Shown here piece after piece: positions 30,397-47,740 of a stretch of DNA of 64,000 nucleotides. Origin of the DNA: Parafrankia irregularis. Lineage in GTDB: Bacteria > Actinomycetota > Actinomycetes > Frankiales > Frankiaceae. Every line of letters starts with the position of its first letter. Position 1 is the first letter of the stretch. The notes beneath the pieces were generated by a model that saw nothing but the letters and a program-made list of their open reading frames with translations, made no database searches and was not told the origin of the DNA. The position numbers and the translations under genes are program-made. The stretch lies in the NCBI RefSeq assembly GCF_001536285.1, contig NZ_FAOZ01000008.1, positions 213,118-277,117 on the forward strand, written 5' to 3'.

Positions 30397-30764
30397 GGCG
30401 AGGATTCTCGCGGATCGGACAGTCGGCGTCGCGTGAGTATTCCGCTGGAGTGCTGGGCGACGTGGCTCTCGGCCATCGGGAGCGGCTGCGGGCTCGTGAA
30501 CCGGGCCGGGCCCCGGTGCAGCGTCGTGGGATGGTGGGTCGCGGTCACGCGTCCGGCCGACGTCCGCTACGTACGATGAGCCGAGCAAGCAAAGCCGTGG
30601 CGGGAGAGGGAAGTGTCAAAGGGACGTTCGACCAGCCGACCCGGGCGGCCAGGTGCCGAGGGTAGGCGGAGTCGCCGCGAGTGCTCCAGCGCCCGGGGAG
30701 GTCTGCACCGGCGCGCGGGAGCACGGGACACGGACCCGAGCGGCCGATTCACAGGGCTGTCGGC
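30397..30764. other. Divergent gap between hen1 and a TetR gene
   Basis: No gene supported. This 368-bp gap must hold promoters for hen1 (minus) and the TetR gene (plus), but I found no clear -35/-10 pair or palindrome. The TetR frame is open through the second half, so its true start could lie anywhere from 30681 to 30825. Confidence 0.3.
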
Positions 30765-31496
30765 ATGACTCCCGAGCCTGTCGGGGTCGGCCGACGGTCG
30801 GCGGGCCGTGCGCGGACCAGCGCCGTGGCAGAGGACGAGGATGCCGCTGTCGCGCGGCCAGCCGCGGTGGAGAGCCCCAAGACCACCCGGCGGCGTCGGG
30901 GTGAGCCGCGGCGTCTGCTCCTCGCGGCCGCCCGGGAGCTGTTCTCGGCGCAGGGCTACGCGGTCATCAGCACCCGTGAGATAGCGGAGCACGCGGGGGT
31001 GTCGGAGACACTCCTGTTCCGGCACTTCGGGTCGAAGGCGGGCCTGTTCCGGGAAGCGCTCGCCCTGCCGTTCGTCGAGTTCATCCAGGATTTCAGCCAC
31101 CGGTGGCGCTCCGGTGAGATGGACGCCCTCGACGACGAGTCCTTCGCGCGTCAGCTCAACGGCGGCCTGTACGACCTGTTCCGGCAGAACCGGAGCCTGG
31201 TCCTGATGCTGTGGGCCGACAACCTGCCCCGGGACGACGAGTGGGCGAGCATCGGCATGGCCGAGATCGACAAGGCGATGCGCGAGCTCGTCAAGATCGG
31301 TAACGAGGAGACGATCCGCCGGCAGGGCAAGGCGATGCCTCGTCACGACCTGGCGACCCGGGCGACGCTCGCCATGGTCGCCGGTATGGCTGTCTTCGGG
31401 GAGTCGTTCTACGGGAAGCGCAGACCGTCACGACGGGCGATCGTCGAGGAGCTCACCCAGACCTCGATGCACGGCCGGCTACACCGCAGCGTCTGA
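30765..31496 (+). CDS. TetR/AcrR family transcriptional regulator
   Basis: A regulator of about 243 residues. After a basic, Arg-rich lead (KTTRRRRGEPRRLLLAAA) the helix-turn-helix reads STREIAEHAGVSETLLFRHF, followed by GSKAGLFREAL, typical of TetR proteins. The C-terminal domain is all-helical. The ATG at 30765 is a compromise: the ribosome site is poor, and GTG at 30825 would remove 20 residues of disordered sequence without touching the DNA-binding domain. It converges with the SDR end of the LuxCE operon and shares a strong hairpin with it, so it may regulate that operon, but it is not next to that operon's promoter. Confidence 0.88.
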   Translation: MTPEPVGVGRRSAGRARTSAVAEDEDAAVARPAAVESPKTTRRRRGEPRRLLLAAARELFSAQGYAVISTREIAEHAGVSETLLFRHFGSKAGLFREALALPFVEFIQDFSHRWRSGEMDALDDESFARQLNGGLYDLFRQNRSLVLMLWADNLPRDDEWASIGMAEIDKAMRELVKIGNEETIRRQGKAMPRHDLATRATLAMVAGMAVFGESFYGKRRPSRRAIVEELTQTSMHGRLHRSV

Positions 31497-31637: not shown

Positions 31638-32414
31638 CTACTTCGTCAGGTATCCGCCGTCGACGGGCAGGAGGATGCCGGTGACGTTCGTCGACAGGTC
31701 GCAGGCCAGGTAGAGCGCGGCCCGCGCGCAGTCCTCCGGGGTGATGATCTCGCCGATCGGGTGCAGTGACCGCAGCACCTTGGCCTCGGCCTCGTCGGGG
31801 GGGCGGAACTCCTCACCCTTGGCGAACGCGAGGTTGGTCCAGATACCCCCGGGGCAGATGGCATTGACACGGATCTTGTCCGACGCGACCTCGGCGGCCA
31901 GCGCCCGGGTGAGCTGGTTGACGAGGCCCTTGGTGGCGCCGTAGACGACACCACCCCAGGAGATCATGCCGGCGATGGAGCCGGTGTTGACGATGACCCC
32001 GCCGCCGCCCTGCTGTTTGAACTGGCGCACGGCCTCCTTGCAGCCGTTGAACACACCCCGGCCGTTGACCGCGACAAGGTGGTCGAAGTCCTTGACCGTG
32101 TGATCCTCGATCGTCATGCCGGAGCGGGGGGAGGCGATTCCCGCGTTGTTCACCATGACGTCGAGGCGACCGTAGGTCGCGACGGCGGTGGCGACGACGG
32201 CGGCGACCTGGTCGGGATCGGCCACGTCGCAGGCGGCGGGGATGGCGGTGCCGCCTGCGGCCTCGATGGCCGCCGAGGCCCCTTCGGCCCACTCGCGGCG
32301 CAGGTCGGCGCAGACGATGTTGGCGCCTTCCTGGGCGAACAGCTGTGCGATGGCCCGGCCGATGCCGGCCCCGGCGCCGGTGACGACAACCGTCCGATCT
32401 GCGAGCAGGCTCAT
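31638..32414 (-). CDS. Classical SDR-family oxidoreductase
   Basis: A 258-residue SDR with all family motifs: TGAGAGIGRAIA for cofactor binding, NNAG in VMVNNAGIA, catalytic Ser in NTGSIAGM, Tyr and Lys in VVYGATKGLV, and the PGGIWT segment. The acidic residue after the second strand (CADLRREW) suggests NAD(H). GGGAGGCTTGGA precedes the ATG. It is the last gene of the LuxE-LuxC-P450-SDR operon, 52 bp after the P450. It may interconvert an alcohol and ketone or aldehyde made by its neighbours. Confidence 0.93.
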   Translation of the reverse strand: MSLLADRTVVVTGAGAGIGRAIAQLFAQEGANIVCADLRREWAEGASAAIEAAGGTAIPAACDVADPDQVAAVVATAVATYGRLDVMVNNAGIASPRSGMTIEDHTVKDFDHLVAVNGRGVFNGCKEAVRQFKQQGGGGVIVNTGSIAGMISWGGVVYGATKGLVNQLTRALAAEVASDKIRVNAICPGGIWTNLAFAKGEEFRPPDEAEAKVLRSLHPIGEIITPEDCARAALYLACDLSTNVTGILLPVDGGYLTK

Positions 32415-32466
32415 TCCAAGCCTCCCGGTGCGATTTCCCGGACCTGCCGCCGGGCCGGTCGGGACC

Positions 32467-33726
32467 TCATGCGTCCTCCGACGCACTCGCCGCCTCGCCG
32501 GCGTCGACGGCCTCCTCGTCGATGACGATCCGCACCGTGTGCGGACCCTGCAGCATCGCCGTGGGCACCGCGTCGTAGCGGTCCGGCTCCACCAGGTGGT
32601 AGGAGACGACCCGCTCGGTGAAGGCCCGCATGGCGGCACGCATCTCCATACGGGCGAGTCCCGCGCCCGGGCAGATGTGCGGGCCCGAGCCGAAGGCGAG
32701 GTGCGACCTGTCCGTCCGGTCGAGGCGGAACTCGTTCGGGTTCTCGTGCTTGCTCTCGTCCCGGTTCGCCGAGCCGATGCACATGAACACCTTCTGCCCG
32801 GCCTCCACCTGCCGACCGTCCAGCTCCATCGGGCTGGCGCAGGTACGCACCATCCACTGCGCGGGCGCGTCGATCCGCAGCGCCTCCTCGATGGCCGCGT
32901 CGATCAGCGCCGGGTTGCGGCGCAGTTCCGCGTAGGCCTCGGGGTCCAGGCCCAGCCGGTAGATCAGGCTGCCGAGGGTGTTACGCGTGGTGTCGCTGCC
33001 GGCGCCGATCATGAACATGATCTGGGCCCTGATGTTGCGGGGGGTGAGCGTCTCGCCCTCCACCTCGGTGACCAGGAAGCGGGTCAGCGCGTCGTTGGGC
33101 CACTCGTCGCGGGGCACGGCCAGCCGCTCGTCGATACGAGCCTGGACGTAGCCGCTGAGCGAGTCCGAGCTGTCGGAGATGGAGATGCTCTTCCCGGTCG
33201 CCGCCGCCTCCTGGAACCGCCTGCCGCTCTCCCGGATCCAGCCGTAGTAGGCCATCGAGTCCGCTTCCGGGAACCCGAACAGGCGGGCCATGGCGGCCGG
33301 CGGGATCGGCTCGGCGACGTGGGCGGCGAAGTCGACGCCGGCCGCGCCCGCCTCGCGGGCCTCGGCGAGCATCTGCTCCACCAGCTTCGTGCTCAGGTCC
33401 CTGAGGTACGGCTCGATCTTCTGGCTGCGGTGGACCGCGACGACCGAGTTGATGATCCGCCGGACCTTGCCGTGCCGCGGCTCGACCAGCGCCGCGATGT
33501 TCTTGTCCTCCTCGGGCAGGTTGTCGGCACCCGCGCTGCCCGAGAAGTTCTCGACACTGCGCAGGCCGAGGTCGACCGATGAGTAGGACACGGCGGCGAG
33601 TACGCCGTTGAGGCCGGGGAAGGGCACGACACCACCGGTGTCGCGCAGTTCCCGGAACGCGGCGGCCCGCTCCTCCGGATCCACGGCCAGCGGCGTGGGG
33701 CCAGCCCCAACGGTCTTTTCGGACAC
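32467..33726 (-). CDS. Cytochrome P450 (III)
   Basis: A 419-residue P450. The I-helix is MIGAGSDTTRNTLGSL, ExxR lies in EEALRIDAPA, and the heme Cys is in AFGSGPHICPGAGLARME. The GTG at 33726 is favoured because GGGAGG precedes it at good spacing; an ATG at 33759, overlapping the LuxC-like stop, is the alternative and would add 11 residues. It directly follows the acyl reductase gene, so its substrate may be the aldehyde or alcohol produced there, or it may make the acid that feeds LuxE/LuxC. The C-terminus is acidic and Ala/Glu-rich. Confidence 0.92.
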   Translation of the reverse strand: MSEKTVGAGPTPLAVDPEERAAAFRELRDTGGVVPFPGLNGVLAAVSYSSVDLGLRSVENFSGSAGADNLPEEDKNIAALVEPRHGKVRRIINSVVAVHRSQKIEPYLRDLSTKLVEQMLAEAREAGAAGVDFAAHVAEPIPPAAMARLFGFPEADSMAYYGWIRESGRRFQEAAATGKSISISDSSDSLSGYVQARIDERLAVPRDEWPNDALTRFLVTEVEGETLTPRNIRAQIMFMIGAGSDTTRNTLGSLIYRLGLDPEAYAELRRNPALIDAAIEEALRIDAPAQWMVRTCASPMELDGRQVEAGQKVFMCIGSANRDESKHENPNEFRLDRTDRSHLAFGSGPHICPGAGLARMEMRAAMRAFTERVVSYHLVEPDRYDAVPTAMLQGPHTVRIVIDEEAVDAGEAASASEDA

Positions 33727-33748
33727 GAGTCCCTCCCGGACTGGCAGA

Positions 33749-35131
33749 TCAGCAGTCATCGACGAGCCATTTCACGAACCGCGCGAGCGGGTAGAAGCCG
33801 TCATGCGGCAGCCCGGCGGCGACGTCCACGACCTCGCCCAACGGAACGAGGCGTTGCATGCCCCGGGAGGCGAGCCGGTCCCGCAGCGCCTCGGCTCTGG
33901 CCGCCGGGTAGATCCCGATGGTCTGCGTCGCGACGTTCACGTGATCGAGCGCCGCGTCGAGCGACGGGACCCGCACGACGTTGACCGTCTTGCCGCTGGG
34001 ATGGAAGTCCACCGGGTCGTCGGACAGCACGACGAGGCCGCTGCCGTCCTCGGCGCCGAACACCTCGTAGTCCGGCGACATCGTGCGCAGTACCTCGACC
34101 TCGGCCCGGATGTCCGCGGGCAGGGTGGAGACGATGGCGTCGGCGTAGGTCCGCTCGGTGGCCAGCGCCCGGGCGAGGTCGGCACACCACGCGGCGAGGC
34201 CACCGTCGGTGTCGTCCTCGGCGTAGACGAACCGGCTGGCGGCGCAGACCTCCTGGTTGAACAGGCTGGTGTCCTCCGCCGCGGCGCTGGCCGACGCGCG
34301 CCGCACCTCCTCGGAGCCGAGTGCCTCCCGGCCGAGCAGCGAGATCGAGACCTTCGGGTCGAACGACACCAGCTCGAAGCCGGGGGCGACGTAGCCGATG
34401 GCGTTGCGGATGGCGGCGTCACCGCCCCAGGCGACCAGCCGGTCGAAGTACTGGGCGCGGAACAGCGCGCTCTCGACCGTCGCGTCACCGCCCCGCCAGT
34501 ACACGCAGGAAAACGATCGGGTCACGGGGTGGTCGGGGTCGACATCCGCCAGGGTCCGCAGTACGGCGCTGCCGGTGAACAGGTCGTTCGACGGCAGTTT
34601 CAGCAGGTGCACCCCTTTGCAGAGGGCGCCGCGCACAACCGTCGCGGCGGTGACCCCCGGGGTGTTCCCGGCGAGGACGTGCACGAGCCGCGGCGGGAAC
34701 GCCCGGACCCGGCGGACGCGGCCCTGGAGGTCGGTGATCTCCTTCCAGCCGTCCAGCGCCTCCCGGCCGATCTCCTGCTCGACCTGGAACCACATCGTCT
34801 TCGGGTCGAAGAGGTGTTTCAGGTCCCGGTAGGTCCGTTCGAGGATGCGGGGGCCCAGCGAGCTGCACGCCGCGCTCCGCTCGAGCGCCTCCTGCAGGTA
34901 CGTGTTGGTGTCGAGGTCGAGCCGGTCACCGACGGCGGCGAGGAACTCGATGATCTCGGCGACCGGCAGGTCGAACGCCGGGCCCGGCTCGGACCGCGGC
35001 CACACCAGTTCGTCGAGGTCGAGCACCGGCGTGCTGAAGTCGGGGTAGTCGATCGTCCCGGCCTCCTCGTCCGGGAGCACGGTCCGTCCCCTGACGAAGT
35101 GCGGGACAGCCAGCCGCGTGAGGCCAGTCAT
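33749..35131 (-). CDS. LuxC-like acyl-(enzyme/CoA) reductase
   Basis: A 460-residue aldehyde-dehydrogenase-fold reductase of the LuxC family. The predicted acyl-accepting Cys296 lies in SLFNQEVCAASRF, the position of the LuxC nucleophile. The cofactor-binding segment VHVLAGNTPGVTAATVVRG and the conserved RLVAWGGDAAIRNA also fit. In luminous bacteria LuxC reduces acyl groups handed over by LuxE to the long-chain aldehyde using NADPH. Here no luciferase genes are nearby, so the aldehyde must serve another purpose. The ATG overlaps the LuxE-like stop (ATGA), and the P450 follows. Confidence 0.88.
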   Translation of the reverse strand: MTGLTRLAVPHFVRGRTVLPDEEAGTIDYPDFSTPVLDLDELVWPRSEPGPAFDLPVAEIIEFLAAVGDRLDLDTNTYLQEALERSAACSSLGPRILERTYRDLKHLFDPKTMWFQVEQEIGREALDGWKEITDLQGRVRRVRAFPPRLVHVLAGNTPGVTAATVVRGALCKGVHLLKLPSNDLFTGSAVLRTLADVDPDHPVTRSFSCVYWRGGDATVESALFRAQYFDRLVAWGGDAAIRNAIGYVAPGFELVSFDPKVSISLLGREALGSEEVRRASASAAAEDTSLFNQEVCAASRFVYAEDDTDGGLAAWCADLARALATERTYADAIVSTLPADIRAEVEVLRTMSPDYEVFGAEDGSGLVVLSDDPVDFHPSGKTVNVVRVPSLDAALDHVNVATQTIGIYPAARAEALRDRLASRGMQRLVPLGEVVDVAAGLPHDGFYPLARFVKWLVDDC

Positions 35132-36465
35132 GATGTCATCACTCCACGTACATAGGCATCGACCGTTCCGGCGCAGGTCAGCTTGTCGTCCCCGCCCTCG
35201 GCCAGGCTGTAGCGGACGATGCCGCCGGGGACGATGCTGAGGTTCGGTGTCGTCAGGTCCACCGTCACCCGGTCGCCGGTGACGACGCCGCCCCATCGGC
35301 CCTGGACCGCGAGGTCCAGGAAGGCGAAGCGGCCGGTCACGGACTCCCCCTCCAGGGGCAGCACCTGCGTCCCGCTGTCGTCGAGGATCAGCGGGATCAC
35401 CCACGGCGCTGGCCGGTACCGGCCCGCCACCTCGTAGGCGGCCGCGGACAGCTCCGACATCCCGTAGCCGCTCTGCACGTTCGCCCGCGGGATACCGAAG
35501 AACTCGAGGATCTGGGTCTCGTAGTCGGGCGGCAGGTCCGCGCCCTTGGTCCCGCCGCCGCCGGTGACGATCGTCTCCGGATGGAACTCACCGGGCCGCA
35601 CGCCGCGGGCCCGCGCCCGCTCGACGATCGTCCAGTACTGCGCCCAGAACCCACCGATGATCATTGGCTCGCTCCGGTGCGCGATGAGCTTGTCGATGAG
35701 GGCGTCGAGCCGCTCGGCCGCCAGGCGCTGGTTCGCCGCCGCGCTCCGCTCCAGCTCCGCGATCTCGTTCGGCAGGGCGGTGCCCGCCGCGATCCGCTTC
35801 CGCAGGTCCGCCGCCCGCTGCTGATCGGACGCCTGCAGCGGCTCCTCGCTGAGGAAGAACCGGGCGTCCGGCCGCCCGAACTCCTCGGCGATGGTGCGGA
35901 AGTGCAGCGCGGACCGGTGTGGGCCGTACCTGGGCCCGAGGACGAACACCGCGCGGTCCTGCTTCGGCACGATGCCGCGCTGCTCGCCGAAGGCCGCCAC
36001 CAGCGACCGCAACGCCAGGTCGCTGTCGGCGCGGGTCGAGGGCAGGAAGGAGCTCTTGCCGGTGGTGCCGCTGCTGACCAGCACCACACAGCCCGCGGCA
36101 TCCAGCCGGCCGAGCCAGCCCTCCTGGTCGGTCACGCCCGCGACGTCGACCTCGGTGATACGCCGCGACGAGAGCGTGTCGAGCCAGCGGGTCAGCAGCG
36201 GCCACCGACCCCGGTTGACGAAGGACTCCGGGTACGACTTGTAGGACGAGTGCGCGAACAGCAGCGGCACCAGGTCCTGAAACGAGCTGATCCGGTCGAT
36301 TCCGAGCTCGTCCGCGAGCTTTCCCAGCACGGGGATCCGCTCGCGCTGCACGGCGAGCCGCTCGCCCGCCGCCTCGATCCACAACGGCTCGAGCTCGGTG
36401 CGGGGCAGCTCGTGGAAGCGCGGGTCGGCGACGTGGCCGAGTAGCTCCTCGTGGGCCGTGGTCAC
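35128..36465 (-). CDS. LuxE-like acyl-protein synthetase (ATP-dependent acid activation)
   Basis: A 445-residue adenylate-forming enzyme of the LuxE family. The AMP-binding loop SSGTTGKS is at residues 131-138, and downstream segments VQSGYGMSELSAAAYE and VTGDRVTVDL match the adenylation core. It would activate a carboxylic acid as acyl-AMP and pass it to the LuxC-like partner. The GTG start lies 13 bp after the stop of the upstream small protein, and its stop overlaps the luxC-like start. It is longer than Vibrio LuxE (about 370 residues). The acyl specificity cannot be read from sequence. Confidence 0.87.
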   Translation of the reverse strand: MTTAHEELLGHVADPRFHELPRTELEPLWIEAAGERLAVQRERIPVLGKLADELGIDRISSFQDLVPLLFAHSSYKSYPESFVNRGRWPLLTRWLDTLSSRRITEVDVAGVTDQEGWLGRLDAAGCVVLVSSGTTGKSSFLPSTRADSDLALRSLVAAFGEQRGIVPKQDRAVFVLGPRYGPHRSALHFRTIAEEFGRPDARFFLSEEPLQASDQQRAADLRKRIAAGTALPNEIAELERSAAANQRLAAERLDALIDKLIAHRSEPMIIGGFWAQYWTIVERARARGVRPGEFHPETIVTGGGGTKGADLPPDYETQILEFFGIPRANVQSGYGMSELSAAAYEVAGRYRPAPWVIPLILDDSGTQVLPLEGESVTGRFAFLDLAVQGRWGGVVTGDRVTVDLTTPNLSIVPGGIVRYSLAEGGDDKLTCAGTVDAYVRGVMTS

Positions 36466-36478
36466 TGCTCCACCCTCC

Positions 36479-37156
36479 TCATGTCAGCGGGGACCACGGC
36501 GTGGTCCGCAGCATCCGACTCGTCAGGCGCGTGCCCTCGGGCAGCGCCGGCGTGACCGATCCGGACCAGTCGCCCCAGCCGTGGTCCGCACCGAAGGCCG
36601 CCGTCCACTGCTCCCGCGGTGCAACCCGGTAGAGGACGCGCAGCGACCCGTCCGCACCGAGCGCGGGCGCGAACGCGGCGACGCAGCTCAGGACGCCGTC
36701 GTCACCGGTCTCGCCAACGTGGGCCGGCACCGGTGGCACAAGCAGGTCGGCACCCCGGACGGTGTCCTCGCGCAGGACGACCACCTCACGCTCGGGGCCG
36801 GTCGTACCGGGCACCTCGTCGAGGTCGATCGCGCCGAGCGGGGACCAGTCGGTCTGCACGAGCAGCGAGCTCGTCGACCCGTAACGCATGGCGTCGACCC
36901 GCGCGCTCCAGTCCGCGAGATCGCCACGGCGCAACCGGTGGACCAGCCGCTCCCAGGCGGCGCCATCCGGCACCGCCGTGATCGTAATGATCTTGTATGC
37001 CTCACCCGCGCCGTGGGTGGCGTGCAGGTACCAGAGCAGCCTGGCCCCGTCCTTGGCGACGGCGGGCCCGTACTCGTCACGGACCGCGTCCTCGAAGTCG
37101 AACTCCCGCTCGCCGATCACGGCATGGACGTCGTGTATGAACAGCACCGGATTCAT
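36479..37156 (-). CDS. Small paired protein 1, possibly NIPSNAP/dimeric alpha-beta barrel fold
   Basis: A 225-residue soluble protein opening MNPVLFIHDVHAV. It has two halves of about 110 residues, each strand-helix-strand in character (KIITITAVPDGAAWERLVHR in the first; DGVLSCVAAFAP in the second), ending RMLRTTPWSPLT. It is a paralogue of the gene just upstream (MFFVHEIHS ... ALPWSPTA). The pattern resembles NIPSNAP or EthD-type ferredoxin-like barrels, which often bind small hydrophobic ligands or act in P450 and polyketide clusters. I hold this loosely. It lies 13 bp before the LuxE-like gene, and stable pairing with it suggests a substrate-handling role. Confidence 0.65.
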   Translation of the reverse strand: MNPVLFIHDVHAVIGEREFDFEDAVRDEYGPAVAKDGARLLWYLHATHGAGEAYKIITITAVPDGAAWERLVHRLRRGDLADWSARVDAMRYGSTSSLLVQTDWSPLGAIDLDEVPGTTGPEREVVVLREDTVRGADLLVPPVPAHVGETGDDGVLSCVAAFAPALGADGSLRVLYRVAPREQWTAAFGADHGWGDWSGSVTPALPEGTRLTSRMLRTTPWSPLT

Positions 37157-37247
37157 CCCCCGCAGTCAGGCTGGCTGGGTAGTTGCGACGTGCGTGTCGG
37201 GTCGCCGCGCCGGGCCGGCGCCGCAGTGGCACCAGCCCGGCTGCGAC

Positions 37248-37943
37248 TCAGGCCGTCGGTGACCACGGCAGCGCCCTCACCAGCCGTGACGTCCAGGTGT
37301 CGCGCAGCTTCAGCGAGTCATGCAGCCAGCTGCCCGGCCTGATCGATTCACGGGGATTGCCGTGGCTGAGCAGCCGGGTGCCCGCAGCGGGATTCTGGAT
37401 CTGGGTGATCATCAGGTTCTCGGGAACGTCGCCACCGCCGGCCACGGTCTCGAATCCGCCCCACATGACGAAGTCCGAGTACTCGACGTCGAGCGCGCGC
37501 AGGAACACCTGCTCCATGGCGTCCTCGTACGGCCGCTGCATCCCGGTGCGAGGCAGGACGAAGTCGTGGATGTACAACGCGTCGGACGCCTCGGAGGGCT
37601 CCGCGAGCAGCGTCGCGAGGTCGGGTTCGTATCGGCTGAACCTCAGCGGAGCGAGCATCCTCCTGGTGATCCCGACGCGTTCCGCGGCGAGAGCGACAGC
37701 GGCGGCACGGAGGTCACCGCGCCGCGTGCGCTCCCCCAGATCGGCGAGGGTGGCCCCGTCCGCGACCGCGGTCAGCGTGACGATCTCGGGGAGCGTGTGG
37801 GAGCCGGGTACGGACCGCACGCACCACACCAGGCGGGTGCGGTCGTCGCCGGCCAAGGCCGGTCCCCACAGCTCCCGCAGCAGGCTCTCGTACCTCGGCG
37901 CCCTGGCGGGCGTGAGCGAATGGATCTCGTGGACGAAGAACAT
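37248..37943 (-). CDS. Small paired protein 2, paralogue of the next gene
   Basis: A 231-residue protein beginning MFFVHEIHSLTP, preceded by TAGGAGACCG. Similarity to the downstream paralogue covers the opening, the Leu-rich VVWCVRSV / LLWYLHAT strand, the EIVTLTAVADGATLADLGER helix region and the LPWSP ending. It probably forms a heterodimer or tandem barrel with that paralogue. It is the first gene of the six-gene minus operon leading to LuxE, LuxC, P450 and SDR. Longer upstream frames (Arg-rich) are rejected as starts. Function unknown; NIPSNAP-like fold is a guess. Confidence 0.65.
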   Translation of the reverse strand: MFFVHEIHSLTPARAPRYESLLRELWGPALAGDDRTRLVWCVRSVPGSHTLPEIVTLTAVADGATLADLGERTRRGDLRAAAVALAAERVGITRRMLAPLRFSRYEPDLATLLAEPSEASDALYIHDFVLPRTGMQRPYEDAMEQVFLRALDVEYSDFVMWGGFETVAGGGDVPENLMITQIQNPAAGTRLLSHGNPRESIRPGSWLHDSLKLRDTWTSRLVRALPWSPTA

Positions 37944-38459: not shown

Positions 38460-39935
38460 ATGACCGAGCAGGCGGTGCCCGCCCCCGAGAACCGGCCAGG
38501 CTTCCTGGAGCCCGGGCTCGTCCTGGGTGACCGGTTCGTCGCCACATCAATCGGTGGCGAGATGGAGCACTTCAACCCCGCTACCGGCAGGGTGAACAAG
38601 GCCTTCCCTGTCGCCACCCTCGACGAGGTCGACGAGGCCGTGAGCGCCGCGCGGGCGGCGTTCGAGGAATGGCGCCGGTGGACGCCGGATGCCCGGCGCG
38701 CCGCGCTGCTGCGGCTGGCCGACATCATGGTCGAGCGCCGCAGGGAGATCGGCGTCATCGCGGCGCTGGAGAGCGGCACGATCTACAACGAGTTCGTCGC
38801 CGCGTACACGGCCGACTGGTTTCGGTACTACGCCGGCTGGGCCGACAAGCTCACCGGCGAGAGCATCAACCCGTACCCGTTCCGGGGCCTGGACTTCACC
38901 GTCCCCGAGCCGGTGGGGGTGGTCGCCCTGTTCGTCGCCTCGAACGGGCCGATCGGGTTCTTCGGCATGGCCGGCGCGCCGGCACTGGCCGCCGGCTGCA
39001 CCCTGGTGGTCAAGCCACCCGAGCTGGGCCCGTTCTCCTCGGTCTCGTTCGCCCGCTGGTGCCTGGAGGCAGGTATCCCCCCGGGCGTCGTCAACGTCGT
39101 GGGCGGCGGCCCCGAGGTCAGCCAGGCGCTGGTCCGCCACCCTGGCGTCGACAAGATCAGCTTTACCGGCAGCACGCAGACCGGGCGCCGCCTCCAGGAG
39201 GCGGCCGCACAGAACGTCAAGCCGTTGGTGATGGAGCTCGGTGGCAAGTCCGCGAACATCGTCTTCGCGGACGCGGACCTCGACGCCGTGATTCCCGGCG
39301 CCGCCCGGTTCATCAACAGCGCCGGGCAGGGCTGCTCGATGCCGACCCGCCTGCTCGTCCAGCGTCCCCGGTACGACCGAGCCATCGAGGAGGTTGCCCG
39401 GATCGCGAGCGGCGTCGTCGCCGGCGACCCGTTCACCCCCGGGGTGACCATGGGCCCGGTCATCAGCGAGAGCTCCGCGCGCCGCATCACCGGCCTCGTC
39501 AGTGACGCCAAGGAGAGCGGCGCGGCCCGTGTCCACCAGGGCGGCGGGCGCATCGGTGGTGAGCTCGCGAACGGCTACTTCGTCGAGCCGACGCTGCTCG
39601 TCGACGTCGACAACGCGGCACCCATCGCGCAGACCGAGATCTTCGGCCCGGTGCTGTGCGTCATCCCGTTCGACGACGAGGACGAGGCGATCGCGTTGGC
39701 CAACGGCACCGGCTTCGGCCTCGTGGCCTACGCCCACACCCAGGACATGCGGCGCGCCCGCCGTCTCATCGACTCGCTACGGGCCGGCAGCGTGCACATC
39801 AACTCCTCCGGCCCCGGCCCGGTCTCGCCGGCCTCGCCGTTCGGCGGGGTGAAGGACAGCGGCTACGGCCGGCAGGGCAGCCGGCTCGGCATCGAGGAGT
39901 TCCTCTCCTACAAGAACGTGTACCTGAACATCTGA
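38460..39935 (+). CDS. NAD(P)-dependent aldehyde dehydrogenase (II)
   Basis: A 491-residue aldehyde dehydrogenase with Glu259 (VMELGGKS) and catalytic Cys292 (SAGQGCSMPTR). The cofactor loop reads FVASNGPIGFF instead of the usual PWNFP, though the key Asn is kept. FTGSTQTGRRL and EIFGPVLCVIPF are normal. It converts aldehydes to acids, which is the reverse direction of the LuxCE pair encoded divergently. ATG 38460 is chosen from the family N-terminus; the ribosome site is weak. The signal-less binding protein gene follows after 54 bp, as in cluster I, where the same two gene types also sit in one operon. Confidence 0.93.
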   Translation: MTEQAVPAPENRPGFLEPGLVLGDRFVATSIGGEMEHFNPATGRVNKAFPVATLDEVDEAVSAARAAFEEWRRWTPDARRAALLRLADIMVERRREIGVIAALESGTIYNEFVAAYTADWFRYYAGWADKLTGESINPYPFRGLDFTVPEPVGVVALFVASNGPIGFFGMAGAPALAAGCTLVVKPPELGPFSSVSFARWCLEAGIPPGVVNVVGGGPEVSQALVRHPGVDKISFTGSTQTGRRLQEAAAQNVKPLVMELGGKSANIVFADADLDAVIPGAARFINSAGQGCSMPTRLLVQRPRYDRAIEEVARIASGVVAGDPFTPGVTMGPVISESSARRITGLVSDAKESGAARVHQGGGRIGGELANGYFVEPTLLVDVDNAAPIAQTEIFGPVLCVIPFDDEDEAIALANGTGFGLVAYAHTQDMRRARRLIDSLRAGSVHINSSGPGPVSPASPFGGVKDSGYGRQGSRLGIEEFLSYKNVYLNI

Positions 39936-39989: not shown

Positions 39990-41102
39990 GTGGTCAACAG
40001 CCGTATCGCCGAGCCGATCAGGATCGGCTGGTTGCTCGACACCCGGTTCCCGGAGGTGATGGAGCTGGACACCCGCAGTGACCTGCGGGAACCGTTCGAG
40101 CTGGTCTTCAACGACGCCTACGAGCAGGGCGTCCTCGACCGTCCGGTCCAGGTGATCTTCAAGGAGGTCGACGGCCTGCCGCGCGGGTCGGTCAGAGCGG
40201 TCATCGACGCGTACGGCGAGCTGTGCGACGAGGGCTGTCTCGCCGTGTTCGGGCCGCACGTGTCCGAGAACATCCTGCCGGTCAAGGAGGCGATCGAGGA
40301 GCGGTTCCGGGTGCCGTCGATCGGCCTCTACGGCTCCGACGAGGGCCTCGGGGAGTGGACGTTCGCGCTGCCCAACGGGTCGATGACCGACGAGCCGATC
40401 ATCTGGGCCGAGCTGATGCGCCGCGGCGGCCACGAGCGGGTCGGAGTGCTCGTCGAGCGGTCCCAGACCGGCGCGGAGCACCTCGCCGGCTTCCGCAGGG
40501 CGTGCCGGGACGAGGGGCTGCAGATCGTCGCCGAGGAGTCGATCGCCCAGGTCGGCCGGGACGTCACCGACCAGGTCACCCGGATCCGCGACGCGGGCGC
40601 GACCACGCTCGCGCTCTGCGGGTTCGGGATGGGCCTGTGGGGTGTCAACGCCGCGCTGCGCAAGCTCGGCTGGGACCCGCCCCGCTACACCGGAACCGCA
40701 CTCGAGGACGCCTACGCGGTGCCGGACCTTTGGGAGCCGGTGGTGGGCTGGATCGGTCTCGAGCAGTACGACGAGGCGAACAAGGTCGGCCAGAAGTTCC
40801 TGGACCGGTTCGAGGAGGTCTACGGCCGGCGGCCGGAGTACTTCGCGCCGGTGGTGGTCCGGGACGCCGCGGTCTGCTTCCTGGACGCGCTGGTCAACGC
40901 CCGGCCGCTGTCGCCGCGGGGGGTCAAGGAGGCACTGGAGCGGGTCAAGATGCTCCCTGCTGCCTCCGGCTCGCCGGGTACCCGGCTCTCCTTCGGGAAG
41001 TGGACCCGCCGGGGCTGGATGGGCGCCGGCTACCTGGTGGCCCGCCGGCTCGACCCCGATGGGAAGACCTCGCACTTCGTCGCCCGATACGGCGACGAAT
41101 AG
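39990..41102 (+). CDS. Type I binding-protein-fold protein lacking a signal peptide (copy 2)
   Basis: A 370-residue paralogue of the protein at 14471-15583. Shared features include PIRIGWLLDTRFPE, RPVQVIFKEVDGLPRG, AVIDAYGELCDEGCLAVFGP, GEWTFALPNGS, WMGAGYLVARRLDPDGKTSH and a conserved Cys in DEGCLAVFG. There is no export signal, so it is cytoplasmic. Its GTG start is preceded by AAAGGATGACGAC. It follows an aldehyde dehydrogenase gene in the same direction and ends before a strong hairpin. Classical roles of this fold are ligand capture or allosteric sensing. The repeated link to aldehyde dehydrogenase and P450 genes suggests a specific, unrecognised job in these pathways. Confidence 0.8.
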   Translation: MVNSRIAEPIRIGWLLDTRFPEVMELDTRSDLREPFELVFNDAYEQGVLDRPVQVIFKEVDGLPRGSVRAVIDAYGELCDEGCLAVFGPHVSENILPVKEAIEERFRVPSIGLYGSDEGLGEWTFALPNGSMTDEPIIWAELMRRGGHERVGVLVERSQTGAEHLAGFRRACRDEGLQIVAEESIAQVGRDVTDQVTRIRDAGATTLALCGFGMGLWGVNAALRKLGWDPPRYTGTALEDAYAVPDLWEPVVGWIGLEQYDEANKVGQKFLDRFEEVYGRRPEYFAPVVVRDAAVCFLDALVNARPLSPRGVKEALERVKMLPAASGSPGTRLSFGKWTRRGWMGAGYLVARRLDPDGKTSHFVARYGDE

Positions 41103-41407: not shown

Positions 41408-41656
41408 TCGACTCACCCAGCGAACAGCCATCTTCCTTTTAACCAGCGGGTTTAACGTTTCAACCGCCAGTACGGAGCGCCGGAATTCACTACCATGCGT
41501 CACTTTCGATCACTCCAAATGGTCGTCGCCTGACTACATAACGTTCACATGACGCCGAAGCCTGCAGGTCGCCGCACCCTTGACGATCCACGGAAAGTTG
41601 CCTTACAAGTTCAGTGCTCACACCACTATTGGTCGCCGACACTAGGGGAAGATCGC

Positions 41657-42892
41657 ATGCGTAGACGTAGTCGACTCTGGGGCTTAGGCCTGGCCGCGAG
41701 CCTCGCGGCCGCCGTCCTGGCGGGTTGCGGAGGGTCCGGCTCAGGCGGGTCGGAATCCTCAAATGCTCGCGGCATCGAGGGCAGGACCATCAAGATCGGC
41801 GGACTGGTCGAGCAACGCGCCTTCGGTGGCGCCGACGACGGGTTCAAGGCACGGATCGATCGCGCCAACTCGACGAAGGAGCTGGGCGACTACACGATCG
41901 ACTACCTGGGCTCCACCGACCCGGGCCAGGGCGCCGTCGACAAGGCGCTGGCAACGACCCAGAGCCTCATCGACCGCGACGACGTGTACGCGGTCGCACC
42001 GGTTCTCACCACCAGTTTCCAGCAGTCCGTCGCGAACTACGCCGTGGCCAGGAAAGTGCCCTATTTCGGGGGCGGATTCACTCCTGCGTTCTGCTCTCCG
42101 AACCAGTACGGCTTCAGCACCATCGGCTGCTACATCAGCGCGGACTACGGCTACACCACGCCGGTGGAGGGCGTCGCGAAGGCACTGGGCAAGAAGCCGG
42201 ACCAGGTCCGGTGGGCTGTCGTCTCACTCGCCCAGCCCGACGGCCAGAAGCTCGCCGACAACTACCGCAAGCTGATCGAGACCGTCAACGGGAAGGTCGT
42301 GTACAGCGAAGCGACCGTGCCGCCCGGCGGCGGCGGCGACCTGCAGCCGTTCGTCAGCGCGGTGATGGATTCGAAGCCGGACGCCGTCTGGCTTCTCCTC
42401 GGCAGCGAGGTCCTCGGTTTCTCGTCGGCGATGAAGGCCGCCGGGTACACGGGGGCGTTGGTCAACTCGTCGTTCTACCTGCCCGGAACGCTTCAGAAGG
42501 TCCCGACGGTGGCGGCGGCACTCGAGGGCGCCATCGTGTCCACGAACACGCCGGTCCTGGAGTCGAACAGCACGTACATCCAGCAGCTGGAAAAGGACTT
42601 CAAGGCCATCGGGAAGTCCGCCGACGATGTCACCTTCGGGGCGTTGAGCGGTTACCAGGCCGCGGACATGATGATCGCGATGATGAAGAAGGTCGCGCCG
42701 GACTTCGGCGACCTGGTGTCGACGATCGGCAAGGGCTTCAAGTACGAGCCCGGGAGGGACGCCGCCCCGGTGTCGTGGCCGGAGGCGTTCGACGGCAGCG
42801 TGGGCTGCAACACCGTACTGCGCGTCGAGAACGGCTCATACAAGATCGTGGCGCCGTACTCCTGCACCGGCAGGAAGGTCGAGTTCGACTGA
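41657..42892 (+). CDS. ABC-transporter substrate-binding lipoprotein
   Basis: A 411-residue exported binding protein. The signal peptide MRRRSRLWGLGLAASLAAAV ends in a canonical lipobox LAGC, with Cys24 lipidated, then a Gly/Ser linker. The mature domain opens TIKIGGLVEQRAFGG and has the type I binding-protein order, with ADYGYTTPVEGVAKALG in the middle. It captures the ligand for the LivHM-type permease encoded next. The ATG at 41657 is chosen because AGGGGAAG precedes it and the signal peptide starts there. Ligands of such importers in actinomycetes range from amino acids to aromatic acids and steroid fragments; which one applies is unknown. Confidence 0.93.
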   Translation: MRRRSRLWGLGLAASLAAAVLAGCGGSGSGGSESSNARGIEGRTIKIGGLVEQRAFGGADDGFKARIDRANSTKELGDYTIDYLGSTDPGQGAVDKALATTQSLIDRDDVYAVAPVLTTSFQQSVANYAVARKVPYFGGGFTPAFCSPNQYGFSTIGCYISADYGYTTPVEGVAKALGKKPDQVRWAVVSLAQPDGQKLADNYRKLIETVNGKVVYSEATVPPGGGGDLQPFVSAVMDSKPDAVWLLLGSEVLGFSSAMKAAGYTGALVNSSFYLPGTLQKVPTVAAALEGAIVSTNTPVLESNSTYIQQLEKDFKAIGKSADDVTFGALSGYQAADMMIAMMKKVAPDFGDLVSTIGKGFKYEPGRDAAPVSWPEAFDGSVGCNTVLRVENGSYKIVAPYSCTGRKVEFD

Positions 42893-42933
42893 CAGACCAG
42901 CTGGATCCGCTGGTTTACGACCGAGGTTGGTGG

Positions 42934-45144
42934 ATGTCACCTCGACGTCCACCCACCGTCATCCTGTCAGTTCTTCTCGCCTTCCTCGTCCTTACTGCCA
43001 GCGGAGTCATACCGATGGATCAGTTCGTACGTGACGTCATCACCGGGTCGGTCAACGGAAGCATCTACGCCCTGATCGCGGCCGGGCTCGTCCTGACCTA
43101 CACGACAACGGGAATCTTCAACCTCGGCTACGCGGGTATCGCCTTCTCCGCCGCCTATGTCTTCTTCGAGCTGAACACCGGACTGCACTGGCCGCAGTGG
43201 GCGGCGGCGACTCTCGTCATCCTGGTGTTCTGCCCCCTGCTGGGGCTGTTGCTGGACGTCGCGATGTTCCGGCGGCTCGCGCGGGCGCCGGAGGTGGTGC
43301 AGCTCGTGGCATCCGTGGGTGTCCTGCTCGCGCTGCCGGCATCGTTCACCTTCCTCGTCGGCCGCGGAATCACCCAGTTCGGCTGGTCGATCCCCACCGG
43401 GACCGACGTCGAGCTGGCTCCCGGCGTCGGCCCACAGCCACGCAAGGTGTTCGGCCTGTTCAGCGGAGTCGTGATCACCTCCGACCAGATCATCGTCCTC
43501 GGGACGACGGTGGTCTGCGTTGTGCTGCTCTCGGTGTTCCTTCGCTCGACGCGGACCGGGCTGCGGATGCGAGCGGTGGCGGACCGCCACGACCTCGCGG
43601 CCCTGCGCGGCGTCGACCCGACGCGCACCTCCCAGCTGGCCTGGGTGCTCGGGACCGTCCTCGCCGGAATCGCCGGCGTGGTCGGCTCACCGATCCTGCG
43701 TGTCCTGAACCCGGACGCCTACGCGCTCGCGGTGTTCGTCGCGATCGCGGCCGCGGTGGTCGGCGGCTTCCGTTCGGTCCCGCTGGCCTTCGCCGGCGCG
43801 GTGCTCGTCGCCGTCGCCAGCAACCTCACCTACTCGTGGGCGGGCTTCGCCCAGGACATCCCGGGTTTCAACAGCGCACTTCCGTTCCTGCTGCTCATCG
43901 TCGGCCTGATCGTCATGGCCCGCTCCCGGGCACGTGTCGCCGGGTCCATCGCCGCGGAATCCGCACCGCCCGACCACAGGCGCGACCAGCCGCCATGGCG
44001 GCGCGTCCTGCCCAGCGTGGTCGGCGTGGCGCTGTTGCTGTACGGCATCTTCGTCGGGTTCGACGACTACTGGCTCACCCTCACCACACGCGCCCTGATC
44101 TTCAGCCTGATCTTCCTGTCGTTCACCATCGTGACCGGGCTCGGTGGAATGGTGAGCCTGGCGCAGGCGTCGTTCGTTGCCGGCGGACAGCTGTTGGCCG
44201 GCTATCTGATCAACCAGCACGGTTTCCCGTGGTGGCTCGCCTGCGTGGCTGCCGTCCTGGCCGCGATGGTGCTCGGCGTCCTGGTCGCGTTGCCGTCGCT
44301 GCGGCTCGGCGGGGTGGCACTCGCGCTCGTCACGCTCGCGCTCGCGTTCGTCTGCGGCCAGGTGCTGTTCCAGCTGGACTGGCTGCGCAACGGTGAGTAC
44401 GGCTGGAGCTTCACCCGGCCGGTCTTCGGTCCGCTGGATCTGAACGAGACCCGCAACCTCGCCGGGTTCGTGCTCGTCCTGATCGCCCTGGTCGTCTGGG
44501 TGATCCGCAATCTGGAGCGTTCGCACACGGGGCGGGAGATGCTCGCCGTTCGCAACGCGGCCGCAGCGGCGGCCGCGATCGGGGTCTCCCCCACCATCAC
44601 GAAGCTGAAGGTCTTCGCGTTGTCGGCCGGAGTCGCCGGTCTTGGTGGTGTCCTGCTCGCCACGAACGACATCTCCGTCACCAGCAACTCCGTACCGGCG
44701 ATGTCCGGCCTGCTGTGGCTGGCGGGCGTCGCCCTCCTCGGTCTGCGCCGACCGTCCGGCGCGATTCTCGCCGGCCTGTTCATCGGGCTCGTGCCCGGTG
44801 TGCTCAGCGGCTTCTCCCTGCCGTTCGGGCTGTGGGAGTGGTCCGGCTCGAAGGCGTCCGAAGTGCCGACGATCCTGTTCGGCCTCGGTGCCATCGCACT
44901 CGCCCGGCAGCCTGACGGCATGCTGGCGGACATCGCGCGGCGCAACTTCCAGCGCCGGGCACGCCGCCGCGCCGCCGCCACCGCGAGCGTCTCGGGAGCC
45001 GCTCCGCGCGTCCCTGAGATCACGGCGGATGTCCCGGGCAGCGCGGCGGTCGACCTCGGCGGCACCGACAGCCGCGGCGCACGGGCCCGCGTCAGCGAGG
45101 CAGGTGCCAGCGACCTGGAAGCGAGCGGAGGAGTCGCCCTGTGA
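42934..45144 (+). CDS. Fused LivH-LivM ABC permease
   Basis: A 736-residue membrane protein joining two permease domains. The first half is LivH-like (SVNGSIYALIAAGLVLTYTT, then NLGYAGIAFSAAY, about residues 30-310). The second half is LivM-like (FSLIFLSFTIVTGLGGMVSL and later LGLRRPSGAILAGLFIGL, about 385-650). About 80 residues of Arg/Ala-rich, disordered sequence follow. Standard systems use two separate proteins. The ATG at 42934 gives one extra N-terminal helix; a start at ATG 43015 is possible. It lies 41 bp after the binding protein gene, and its stop overlaps the GTG of the LivF-like ATPase. Confidence 0.93.
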   Translation: MSPRRPPTVILSVLLAFLVLTASGVIPMDQFVRDVITGSVNGSIYALIAAGLVLTYTTTGIFNLGYAGIAFSAAYVFFELNTGLHWPQWAAATLVILVFCPLLGLLLDVAMFRRLARAPEVVQLVASVGVLLALPASFTFLVGRGITQFGWSIPTGTDVELAPGVGPQPRKVFGLFSGVVITSDQIIVLGTTVVCVVLLSVFLRSTRTGLRMRAVADRHDLAALRGVDPTRTSQLAWVLGTVLAGIAGVVGSPILRVLNPDAYALAVFVAIAAAVVGGFRSVPLAFAGAVLVAVASNLTYSWAGFAQDIPGFNSALPFLLLIVGLIVMARSRARVAGSIAAESAPPDHRRDQPPWRRVLPSVVGVALLLYGIFVGFDDYWLTLTTRALIFSLIFLSFTIVTGLGGMVSLAQASFVAGGQLLAGYLINQHGFPWWLACVAAVLAAMVLGVLVALPSLRLGGVALALVTLALAFVCGQVLFQLDWLRNGEYGWSFTRPVFGPLDLNETRNLAGFVLVLIALVVWVIRNLERSHTGREMLAVRNAAAAAAAIGVSPTITKLKVFALSAGVAGLGGVLLATNDISVTSNSVPAMSGLLWLAGVALLGLRRPSGAILAGLFIGLVPGVLSGFSLPFGLWEWSGSKASEVPTILFGLGAIALARQPDGMLADIARRNFQRRARRRAAATASVSGAAPRVPEITADVPGSAAVDLGGTDSRGARARVSEAGASDLEASGGVAL

Positions 45145-45938
45145 GCGAGCCGACCGAACCGACGGTGCTGGCTGAACCGACGGTGCTGACTGAACCGACT
45201 GAACCGACTGGGCCCACGCACCCCAGGCTGGCGGTTCACGGCCTGCACGCCGGATACGGCGACGCAGGGGTGCTGCACGGCGTCGATCTGGTCCTCCCGA
45301 GCGGCCGGATCGGTGCCGTCCTCGGCCCCAACGGCGCGGGCAAGTCCACCACCTGCAAGACCCTCGTCGGCCTCGTCCGGGCAGCCGCCGGCACCATCGC
45401 GGTCGACGGCCGCGACGTCACGACCGCGCCGACCTGGCGTCGCGCACGGGCCGGAATGTTCCTCGTTCCCGAAGGCCGCGGGGTTTTTCCCGGGCTCAGC
45501 GTCGAGGACAACCTGCGCCTCATGGTGAACCGGAACACCGATATCGCGTCGGTGTACGAGCGCTTCCCGGCGCTCGGCACCCGGCGGCGCCAGCACGCGG
45601 GAAGCCTGTCGGGCGGCGAGCAGCAGATGCTGTCACTGGCCCCGATGCTGGCCGAGCCGACGGAGCTGCTCATCGCCGACGAGCCGATGCTCGGCCTGGC
45701 ACCTCGCATCGCGGACCAGATCCTCGGCGTGTTCGACGACCTGCGGGTGCGCGGCACCACCATCCTGCTGGTGGGGGAAAGCCCGCACGGCATCGTGGAC
45801 ATCGCCGACCAGGTCTCGCTCATCCACGCCGGTCGGATGACCTGGTCCGGCCTGGCATCCGACCTTGACCGCACCGTGCTCGAGCAGGCGTACTTCGGGC
45901 CCGACGCCGCCGGTCCTCCCAGGAAGTCCGTCTTCTAG
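45141..45938 (+). CDS. LivF-type ABC transporter ATPase
   Basis: A 265-residue nucleotide-binding subunit. Walker A is GPNGAGKST, the ABC signature is LSGGEQQ, and Walker B leads into LLIADEPMLGLAP, the LivF-type D-loop. It energises the fused permease with the LivG-type partner on the other strand. The first 27 residues are a Glu-Pro-Thr repeat (EPTVLAEPTVLTEPTEP) coded by tandem 15-bp units, which is not part of the ATPase fold. The GTG start overlaps the permease stop, so the two are translationally coupled. Confidence 0.95.
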   Translation: MSEPTEPTVLAEPTVLTEPTEPTGPTHPRLAVHGLHAGYGDAGVLHGVDLVLPSGRIGAVLGPNGAGKSTTCKTLVGLVRAAAGTIAVDGRDVTTAPTWRRARAGMFLVPEGRGVFPGLSVEDNLRLMVNRNTDIASVYERFPALGTRRRQHAGSLSGGEQQMLSLAPMLAEPTELLIADEPMLGLAPRIADQILGVFDDLRVRGTTILLVGESPHGIVDIADQVSLIHAGRMTWSGLASDLDRTVLEQAYFGPDAAGPPRKSVF

Positions 45939-46701: not shown

Positions 46702-47490
46702 TCAGCTGAGGTAGGCGTCCTGTACGGCCTCGTTGCGCATGATCTCCTCCGGAGTGCCATGCGCGATCAATCGGCCCAGCTCCAGGACGCTCACCTCGGC
46801 GCTGTGGCGCATCACGAACGGGATGTGGTGCTCGATCAGCAGGACTCCGCAGTCGTCCGTCCCGGCCAGCTGGTCGAGGATCTCCCCCAGCTCCTCGATC
46901 TCGTGGTCCTCCAGCCCGGAGGTCGGCTCGTCGAGCAGTAACAGCCGAGGCGAGTCGACGATCGCCCGGGCGAGCTCGACCCGCCGCAGTTCACCGATCG
47001 ACAGCCCGCCGGCGAGCTCGTTGCGCAGCCGGAGCAGGCCACAGCGCTCGAGGACGGCCTCGACCCGCTCACGCCGTTCGCGCTCCCGGCGCCGCCGAGA
47101 CGGCAACCCGAGAAGATCACCGATCATGCCACCGCCACCGCCGTGCCACTCGACCGCCAGGAGCACGTTGTCCTCCACCGACAGCCAGCCGAACACCTGC
47201 TGACGCTGGAAGGTGCGTCGCAGCCCACGCCGGGCCCGCCGCACGGAGCTCTCGTTCGTCACGTCGTGCCCGTCGAGCAGGATGGTGCCGCCGACGGGCC
47301 GTCGGATGCCGGCGATGCAGTCGAAGAACGTCGTCTTGCCCGCGCCGTTCGGTCCGATCAGGCCATGCACGGTGCCCGCCCGGACCGTGATGCTGGCGCC
47401 GTCGACGGCCGTGATCCCACCGAAACGCTGGATGACGTCACGGACCTCCAACAGCGGGGCCGAGCCGACGACAGTGGACTGACTAGACAT
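46702..47490 (-). CDS. LivG-type ABC transporter ATPase
   Basis: A 262-residue ATPase of the LivG type. Walker A is GPNGAGKTTF, the LivG-specific RTFQRQQVFGWLSVEDN follows, the signature region is LSIGELRRVELARA (Ile in place of the usual second Gly), and Walker B is LLLLDEPTSGLEDHE. GGGGAGTGAA precedes the ATG. It completes the importer of 41.6-45.9 kb, but it is on the opposite strand, separated by the NTF2-like gene, and needs its own promoter. That split is unusual, since livG normally lies between livM and livF. Confidence 0.94.
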   Translation of the reverse strand: MSSQSTVVGSAPLLEVRDVIQRFGGITAVDGASITVRAGTVHGLIGPNGAGKTTFFDCIAGIRRPVGGTILLDGHDVTNESSVRRARRGLRRTFQRQQVFGWLSVEDNVLLAVEWHGGGGGMIGDLLGLPSRRRRERERRERVEAVLERCGLLRLRNELAGGLSIGELRRVELARAIVDSPRLLLLDEPTSGLEDHEIEELGEILDQLAGTDDCGVLLIEHHIPFVMRHSAEVSVLELGRLIAHGTPEEIMRNEAVQDAYLS

Positions 47491-47740
47491 TTCACTCCCC
47501 AGACGCCGGGCGCGCCAACCCGGCGCGGGGATCCCCGCTGTCGGGGCCGGCAATGGCGATGTCATGGTGTGGACACTGTCCTGCATCACCCGGGTCGACG
47601 CTTCCGGACGCGCTCCCACGCTGGTTCGGAACTACCGAAAGTGCTGGTGTGCAGCTGCCCGACCGGTTGGACGAGCCCAGGGTGACCTGCAGCGGGACAG
47701 TAGCTGATCGCACTACGGGAACGCAATGTCTAGCCAGTGA

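Follow-up and report, generated by a model that had tools for sequence, protein, structure and literature searches.

A predicted LuxE/LuxC-type carboxylic acid reductase in a probably catabolic, importer-linked oxidation cluster of Parafrankia irregularis

What might relatives of LuxE and LuxC, the fatty acid reductase proteins of luminous bacteria, do beside a cytochrome P450 in Parafrankia irregularis? The question is raised by six minus-strand genes at positions 31638–37943 of a 64,000-nucleotide stretch of its 9.5-Mb genome (contig NZ_FAOZ01000008.1; hereafter the window). They encode two small paralogues (smB and smA), a LuxE-like acyl-protein synthetase, a LuxC acyl-thioester reductase, the P450 and a short-chain dehydrogenase/reductase (SDR). 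On the evidence of the sequence, we read the locus as an importer-linked, probably catabolic oxidation cluster in which a LuxE/LuxC-type enzyme pair would reduce a carboxylic acid at the expense of ATP and NAD(P)H, and give this interpretation a probability of roughly 0.6. All six open reading frames (ORFs) were confirmed at the place where an initial annotation had put them; its title word “fused” was loose usage, as no gene fusion is present. They are transcribed in the order smB, smA, LuxE, LuxC, P450 and SDR with gaps of 91, 13, −4, −11 and 52 bases, and the predicted spacing is operon-like. The maximum gap of 91 bp and the overlap of the LuxE and LuxC genes (4 bases) were as first described, but the largest overlap is the 11 bases between LuxC and the P450, assuming the first ATG, and not 4.

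The LuxC gene (33749..35131, minus strand, 460 aa) encodes a true member of its family, with a match far beyond chance: PF05893 scores 164.2 bits (E 5.6e-48) and passes the Pfam gathering score of 21 bits. The sole solved relative at E ≤ 0.01 is 7xc6_A, the LuxC of the LuxC–LuxE complex (E 1.2e-27). Cys296, previously predicted as the catalytic residue and found correct to the residue, aligns with a cysteine of 7xc6_A and is conserved in 19 of 19 relatives. The NCBIfam equivalog model of LuxC (NF052251) was not reached, with 135.4 bits against a cut-off of 750, and because of this score the predicted protein is not a luminescence LuxC proper.

LuxE proteins are acylated on a C-terminal cysteine, and the product of the adjoining gene (35128..36465, minus strand, 445 aa) carries an SSGTTGK motif and an invariant C-terminal Cys431. 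Its identity needs a profile to show. The top solved match of the 16-row family profile was 7xc6_E, the LuxE of the LuxC–LuxE complex (E 1.6e-4), and entries of PaaK (phenylacetate-CoA ligase) ranked behind it from E 0.056. Alignment to Photorhabdus LuxE, the sequence of which came from a plasmid record, gave hhalign probabilities of 97.8% (global) and 95.4% (local), and homology to known LuxE is supported by these comparisons. In alignment A7 the two proteins are 18% identical. Cys431 is the single invariant cysteine of the 16-row family alignment and is conserved in 20 of 20 other LuxE loci and in all six plasmid rows of A7. It lies 14 residues from the C-terminus, and Cys360 of Photorhabdus LuxE 10 residues. 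A CxCG motif occurs upstream of Cys431 in most LuxE relatives and is absent from the window, G025 (a second genome described below), Photorhabdus LuxE and Paraburkholderia rows.

The earlier designation of this protein as a LuxE-like acid-activating enzyme is borne out at the profile level, but no LuxE family model matched it in Pfam (E ≤ 1) or NCBIfam (E ≤ 0.01); AMP-binding was the sole family to appear in the two scans, at 0.016. This counts against our interpretation, as does the placement of the cysteines. Cys431 occupies the position of Photorhabdus Cys360 in a 22-row MAFFT L-INS-i alignment and in half of the four runs of hhalign; the two are 11 residues apart in one hhalign run, one local run ends before them, and default MAFFT (A7) puts them 4 residues apart. 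Because the match is aligner-dependent, our confidence in the LuxE/LuxC chemistry alone, the conversion of an acid to an aldehyde, is lowered slightly but stays at highly likely.

In the proposed relay, LuxE would adenylate the acid, pass the acyl group to its own Cys431 and hand it onward to Cys296 of LuxC, which would reduce the Cys296 thioester to the aldehyde. The pair might instead oxidise: LuxC would take up an aldehyde in thioester form, and the acyl group would be transferred or released by LuxE. Acylating aldehyde dehydrogenases are reversible, and the surroundings are oxidative, with a separate aldehyde dehydrogenase (ALDH) present. However, the LuxE-like protein retains the SSGTTGK loop and the C-terminal cysteine, which oxidation would hardly need, and reductases come after LuxC in some lineages. 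We consider the oxidative direction improbable.

The reductive relay would resemble the lux fatty acid reductase (LuxC–LuxE with LuxD in luminous bacteria; 7xc6) in its LuxC family membership with a catalytic cysteine, in its adjoining genes and, on the LuxE side, in homology by profile, the loop motif and a C-terminal cysteine. It differs in a LuxE that is far diverged and outside the LuxE models, in the order LuxE then LuxC, and in its setting by a P450, an SDR and a pair of dimeric alpha-beta barrel (DABB) proteins. The lux system further differs from the window in its LuxA/B and LuxD: tblastn at E ≤ 1e-8 across the 64 kb found no luciferase-like relative (one luciferase-like query), no match for Photorhabdus LuxD and no relative of the 4HBT thioesterase of G025, in agreement with the absence of luxAB and LuxD stated earlier. 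Carboxylic acid reductase (CAR) is one long adenylation–carrier–reductase chain. Its overall reaction is the one proposed here (acid + ATP + NADPH to aldehyde), but the window has two proteins with a putative cysteine relay in place of a phosphopantetheine arm. A CAR-type single chain is absent from the unit; LuxE and LuxC are separate, and Pfam finds no carrier domain in either. The mel2 locus of Mycobacterium (melF–melK) is, like the present one, a non-luminous actinobacterial locus with lux-like domains; MelK is likened to LuxC, MelF is reported as luciferase-like and no clear LuxE is described (PMC1793995). In the window unit the situation is reversed: a relative of LuxE is present, and the search for a luciferase-like gene found none.

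The P450 and SDR genes at the end of the unit both look intact. The former (32467..33759, minus strand, 430 aa) matches PF00067 over the cut-off (116.8 bits, E 1.4e-33), with the heme cysteine motif FGSGPHICPG from residue 356 and AGSDTT. The latter (31638..32414, minus strand, 258 aa) matches PF13561 (E 5.6e-61) and has the motifs TGAGAGIG and YGATK.

The LuxE–LuxC pair was also found well outside this locus. Genome searches covered 393 genomes of the window's class, its own genome included, with at most 4 (LuxE, P450) or 7 (small proteins, searched by alignment) candidates scored per genome. LuxE relatives were matched in at least 28 of them, and 20 of the 42 places outside the window, mostly the higher-scoring ones, were read. 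LuxC was found in 19 of these 20 loci, directly after LuxE in 18; the two exceptions are both in genome G035, one a locus with the reversed order (L063) and the other a locus whose LuxE relative has no LuxC in the stretch read (L048). The genome of the window itself holds a second LuxE–LuxC pair (G000:C3:209035-211778; L010 7830-10600), followed by a major facilitator superfamily (MFS) transporter and with no sm gene found in the 20 kb. LuxC matches 48 of 72,556 plasmid records, eight of which were opened. One is a lux plasmid; in all seven non-lux records, from Paraburkholderia, Novosphingobium, Sphingobium (two), Caballeronia, Mycobacterium and Pseudonocardia, a LuxE relative adjoins LuxC, and it is annotated as a hypothetical protein in six of the six that are annotated. 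Because the two genes adjoin on diverse plasmids and LuxE is called hypothetical, we regard LuxE–LuxC as a portable module that is easily overlooked. One LuxC with two LuxE relatives nearby was seen on the Paraburkholderia sprentiae plasmid (L198 16404-20073). A link to tomatine was considered for the pair on the plasmid of a tomato-associated Sphingobium strain, but searching the main text of PMC10653915 for LuxC, acyl-CoA reductase and cytochrome P450 gave no match, and no role is claimed.

Genes following LuxC bear on the direction of the route. An aldo/keto reductase is the next gene in 3 of 8 scanned, all of one clade; an annotated alcohol dehydrogenase follows LuxC on the Caballeronia plasmid, and an SDR relative does so in Sphingobium V4. 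Such reductases fit a path from acid through aldehyde to alcohol, though as a minority pattern. The Caballeronia row of LuxE relative, LuxC and alcohol dehydrogenase (L206 8422-20255) has a wax ester synthase family gene about 6 kb on. Elsewhere, Liv-type importer genes stand immediately upstream of LuxE (G308), and the LuxE–LuxC locus of G064 contains a P450 and an SDR 51% identical to that of the window.

Most of the set recurs in one further genome, G025. Of the 392 other genomes, it alone reaches E ≤ 1e-60 with a match to the P450, at 50% identity, and on a single contig its smB and smA lie one gene from this P450, with the LuxE part about 22 kb further. Past the sm pair follow Liv-type importer genes, an ALDH (61% identical to the window ALDH and two genes upstream of LuxE), an amidohydrolase, LuxE (47%), LuxC (57%) and, immediately after LuxC, a 4HBT-type thioesterase. 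Window and G025 LuxE form a clade in the 16-row tree (support 99/98). Other shared genes are an alcohol dehydrogenase dependent on N,N-dimethyl-4-nitrosoaniline (NDMA; 83% identical), amidohydrolases (60, 57 and 42% for three ORFs) and a TetR relative 45% identical to the window regulator. By these comparisons, the window and G025 share a gene pool and not a gene order. The six genes as a conserved block were rejected: most of the set occurs in one other genome of the 393, in a different order. Conservation of all six together in relatives, on which the initial annotation had staked its reading, is not found; LuxE–LuxC travels (18 of 20 adjacent), the six-gene unit does not.

It could be argued that a common LuxE–LuxC module, a P450/SDR and the sm pair are merely co-located in a gene-rich catabolic island. 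Chance neighbourhood of this kind would suit the separation of sm genes from LuxE/LuxC in all sampled loci except those of two genomes, and the weak enrichment of P450 genes near LuxE. The close spacing with two overlaps speaks against it, and so does the finding that, of 393 genomes, the same 2 combine the P450 relative, the sm pair and this subclade of LuxE. We hold chance rather unlikely, and a shared pathway of smA/smB, P450 and LuxE/LuxC likely.

The small proteins smB (37248..37943, minus strand, 231 aa, first in the unit) and smA (36479..37156, minus strand, 225 aa) are paralogous, with 35% identity over 103 aa, consistent with their earlier description as two paralogues of about 230 residues. 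The AlphaFold2 model of smB has a mean predicted local distance difference test (pLDDT) of 92.4 and a predicted template modelling score (pTM) of 0.89, and contains two ferredoxin-like units; as modelled, smB is a tandem DABB fold of two beta-alpha-beta-beta-alpha-beta units. Comparison with 3mcs_A (VIA) gave Z 16.9 and a root-mean-square deviation of 3.5 over 198 aligned residues. Matches from Foldseek and VIA include the putative monooxygenases 3mcs and 3f44, the anthrone oxidase-like 5f9p, PenE (9kdp), sulfur oxygenase reductases and coproheme decarboxylases (Foldseek rank 2, VIA Z ~11); such fold likeness is no proof of function. The structure prediction proposed for the pair was thus confident for smB, whereas the smA model is usable for the first half only and poor past residue 108. 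A DABB fold is seen in this N-terminal half alone, and the C-terminal half is diverged.

By sequence, the pair matched little. No Pfam family at E ≤ 1 and no NCBIfam family at E ≤ 0.01 was found for smB, and no solved relative of the small proteins came up better than E 0.09. Membership in NIPSNAP (PF07978) was rejected, with smA at 15.4 bits (E 0.022), below the gathering score of 22.3, and smB unmatched. EthD and NIPSNAP proteins are small DABB proteins near P450s with an unclear role. As small alpha-beta-barrel proteins next to a P450, smA and smB are similar to them, but they are double in length, come as two paralogues and lie under the NIPSNAP cut-off or are unmatched. An N-terminal His-x-x-His motif is conserved in alignment A6 (22 of 116 candidate sequences after an 80% redundancy cut plus four others), with the second histidine in 26 of 26 rows and the first in 25; both are missing in the smA of G025, which is outside A6.

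The sm family was found in at least 17 of the 393 class genomes. A search of family f1 with smA returned the own genome and G025 only, of 35. Among named genomes, smA as the sole query at first gave no match; a later scan yielded 94 sm relatives, the best 80 of which were retained and represent 79 loci, chiefly from Mycobacterium and also from Frankiales, Acidimicrobiia, Myxococcota and Pseudomonadota bins. These loci are mostly of one genus and not independent. An AMP-forming acid ligase adjoins the sm gene on the same strand in 55 of the 79 loci; some loci end at a contig edge, and among the 61 that extend 3 kb to either side the ligase stands beside the sm gene in 41. A P450 adjoins the sm gene in 4 of the 79. 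Of 20 non-mycobacterial loci inspected, 6 have a P450 no more than 3 kb away, and three of these 6 are closely related. The sm gene is present in two or more copies in 41 of 79 loci. In the sm tree, the pairing looks old, because the two mycobacterial copies fall in separate clades and one Pseudomonadota bin has one of each; the window rows are on long branches, which may meet, so their placement is unsure.

A role of smA/smB as general partners of LuxE/LuxC was rejected, as none of the 79 named loci has LuxE or LuxC beside the sm genes. Because of this, and since the G025 pair is about 22 kb away, the small proteins are not a dedicated LuxE/LuxC accessory: the earlier idea of a dedicated two-protein accessory retains its apparently old pair but not the dedication. 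Similarly, the co-occurrence expected from a neighbourhood search was seen on one contig of G025 and in none of the named sm loci.

The surroundings of the unit are those of a putative uptake and oxidation cluster. Divergent from smB, with about 510 bases between, is an ALDH gene (38460..39935, plus strand; PF00171 E 1.5e-143, scanned from 38457). It is followed on the plus strand by two Liv-type (Peripla_BP_6) substrate-binding proteins (39990..41102, PF13458 E 7.7e-22; 41549..42892, PF13458 E 9.1e-34), by an open frame (41725..45144) the 3' part of which encodes branched-chain-type ATP-binding cassette (ABC) permease domains (PF02653 E 1.6e-57, two stretches) and the true start of which is probably downstream of 42892, and by an ABC transporter ATPase assigned by the Walker A motif in its translation (45141..45938). 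A branched-chain-type ABC transporter ATPase lies on the minus strand (46702..47619; PF00005, PF12399). An NDMA-dependent (mycofactocin-type) alcohol dehydrogenase (61163..62281, plus strand; TIGR03989 534.9 bits, cut-off 440) is a possible member of a larger cluster. Convergent with the unit is a TetR-family gene (30681..31496, plus strand; PF00440), a possible cluster regulator.

At 48120-60582 lie two adjoining acyl-CoA dehydrogenase ORFs and more stretches that resemble acyl-CoA dehydrogenases. A FadD-type ligase and three ORFs of the amidohydrolase type are found there as well, a gene content like that of large degradation islands; a fourth amidohydrolase-type ORF is at 4065-5297. A second oxidation cluster (8236-18437) contains a P450, an ALDH and an ORF resembling an SDR. 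It also has two substrate-binding proteins, one with 56% identity to the first of the two above and the other at 8236, as well as a CbbQ-type AAA and VWA pair and an AveC-like protein (PF17198). An additional P450 is at 5378-6778. At 25940-30588 are a polynucleotide kinase-phosphatase-ligase and a methyltransferase, which by their sequence motifs look like a bacterial Pnkp/Hen1 RNA repair pair.

Nearby are the Liv-type importer genes (substrate-binding proteins, permease and ATPases), the acyl-CoA dehydrogenases, the NDMA-type alcohol dehydrogenase and four ORFs of the amidohydrolase type. We therefore favour a catabolic setting, which is probable on this gene content. The alternative is biosynthetic tailoring, in which LuxE/LuxC would put an aldehyde or alcohol on a specialised metabolite, the P450 and SDR would decorate it, and smA/smB would cyclise or oxygenate it. 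The anthrone oxidase-like 5f9p and the monooxygenase PenE 9kdp among the tandem DABB matches would suit this role, and a Pseudonocardia plasmid carries a type I polyketide synthase (PKS), a LuxE relative, LuxC, an unknown gene and a P450 consecutively (L203 5136-15523), where the module looks like it also serves biosynthesis. In the window, however, the genes scanned (a subset of the ORFs) included no recognisable PKS, nonribosomal peptide synthetase or terpene synthase, and the importer, acyl-CoA dehydrogenases, amidohydrolases and NDMA-type alcohol dehydrogenase indicate uptake and breakdown. Tailoring is unlikely here, though it deserves weight. Of the aldehyde-producing biosynthetic or modification route originally envisaged, the acid-to-aldehyde relay is supported by family, profile and conserved cysteines, while “biosynthetic” is less likely than catabolic.

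Further observations count against the favoured reading, like the disagreement between aligners. Reduction of an acid to an aldehyde next to an ALDH looks futile unless different carbons are targeted. The PKS adjoining LuxE–LuxC on the Pseudonocardia plasmid belongs here too, as do the five of eight genes after LuxC that are not reductases (an MFS transporter, a thioesterase, an AMP ligase, a YebC-like protein and a family-5 substrate-binding protein). In G025, the window SDR has no close counterpart (~34%), and other genes intervene between the sm pair and LuxE. Copies may have been missed, given the number of candidates scored per genome. Gene content was also compared between 18 LuxE loci (L044 and L010 excluded as sources of reference proteins) and 20 comparison stretches, with one-sided, uncorrected p values. 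P450 genes were near LuxE in 5/18 against 2/20 (p 0.16), ligases in 5/18 against 1/20 (p 0.069), amidohydrolases in 4/18 against 1/20 (p 0.14), ALDH in 1/18 against 0/20 and acyl-CoA dehydrogenases in 1/18 against 1/20. Enrichment of LuxE/LuxC loci in P450 or SDR genes is weak at best, as only SDR (10/18 against 4/20) reaches p 0.026, and the wider gene links of LuxE loci are suggestive.

In the importer-linked catabolic cluster that we favour, the P450 would work on the aldehyde or on the acid precursor, and the final oxidation state would depend on the SDR, the ALDH or the alcohol dehydrogenase. A heteromeric tandem-DABB pair of smA and smB would act on the same substrate as LuxE/LuxC and the P450, as a hydrophobic binding barrel or perhaps a cofactor-independent oxygenase or isomerase, and the TetR protein would sense the substrate. 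A more specific and far more speculative scheme, to which we give little credence, is the removal of a carboxylate that beta-oxidation cannot handle: LuxE/LuxC would convert the acid group at a blocked carbon into an aldehyde and the P450 would strip the aldehyde carbon by oxidative deformylation, while the smA/smB barrel pair holds or rearranges the substrate. If true, smA/smB would be a new heteromeric tandem-DABB enzyme, accompanying LuxE here and AMP-forming ligases elsewhere.

A literature search for LuxE/LuxC in such clusters returned nothing recognised as describing the six-gene unit. In bacteria with a LuxC-like “acyl-CoA reductase”, an acid reductase made of two proteins may be present in full and yet easily missed, as LuxE is called hypothetical. 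Recognition of LuxE with its candidate relay cysteine makes an aldehyde route testable in Actinomycetota and Proteobacteria. The unnamed tandem-DABB family, which frequently adjoins an acid-activating enzyme and occurs in mycobacteria, Frankiales, Acidimicrobiia, Myxococcota and other groups, is a clear target for enzyme discovery. LuxE–LuxC, in turn, offers a view, away from luminescence, of the chemistry that bacterial light production may have been built from.

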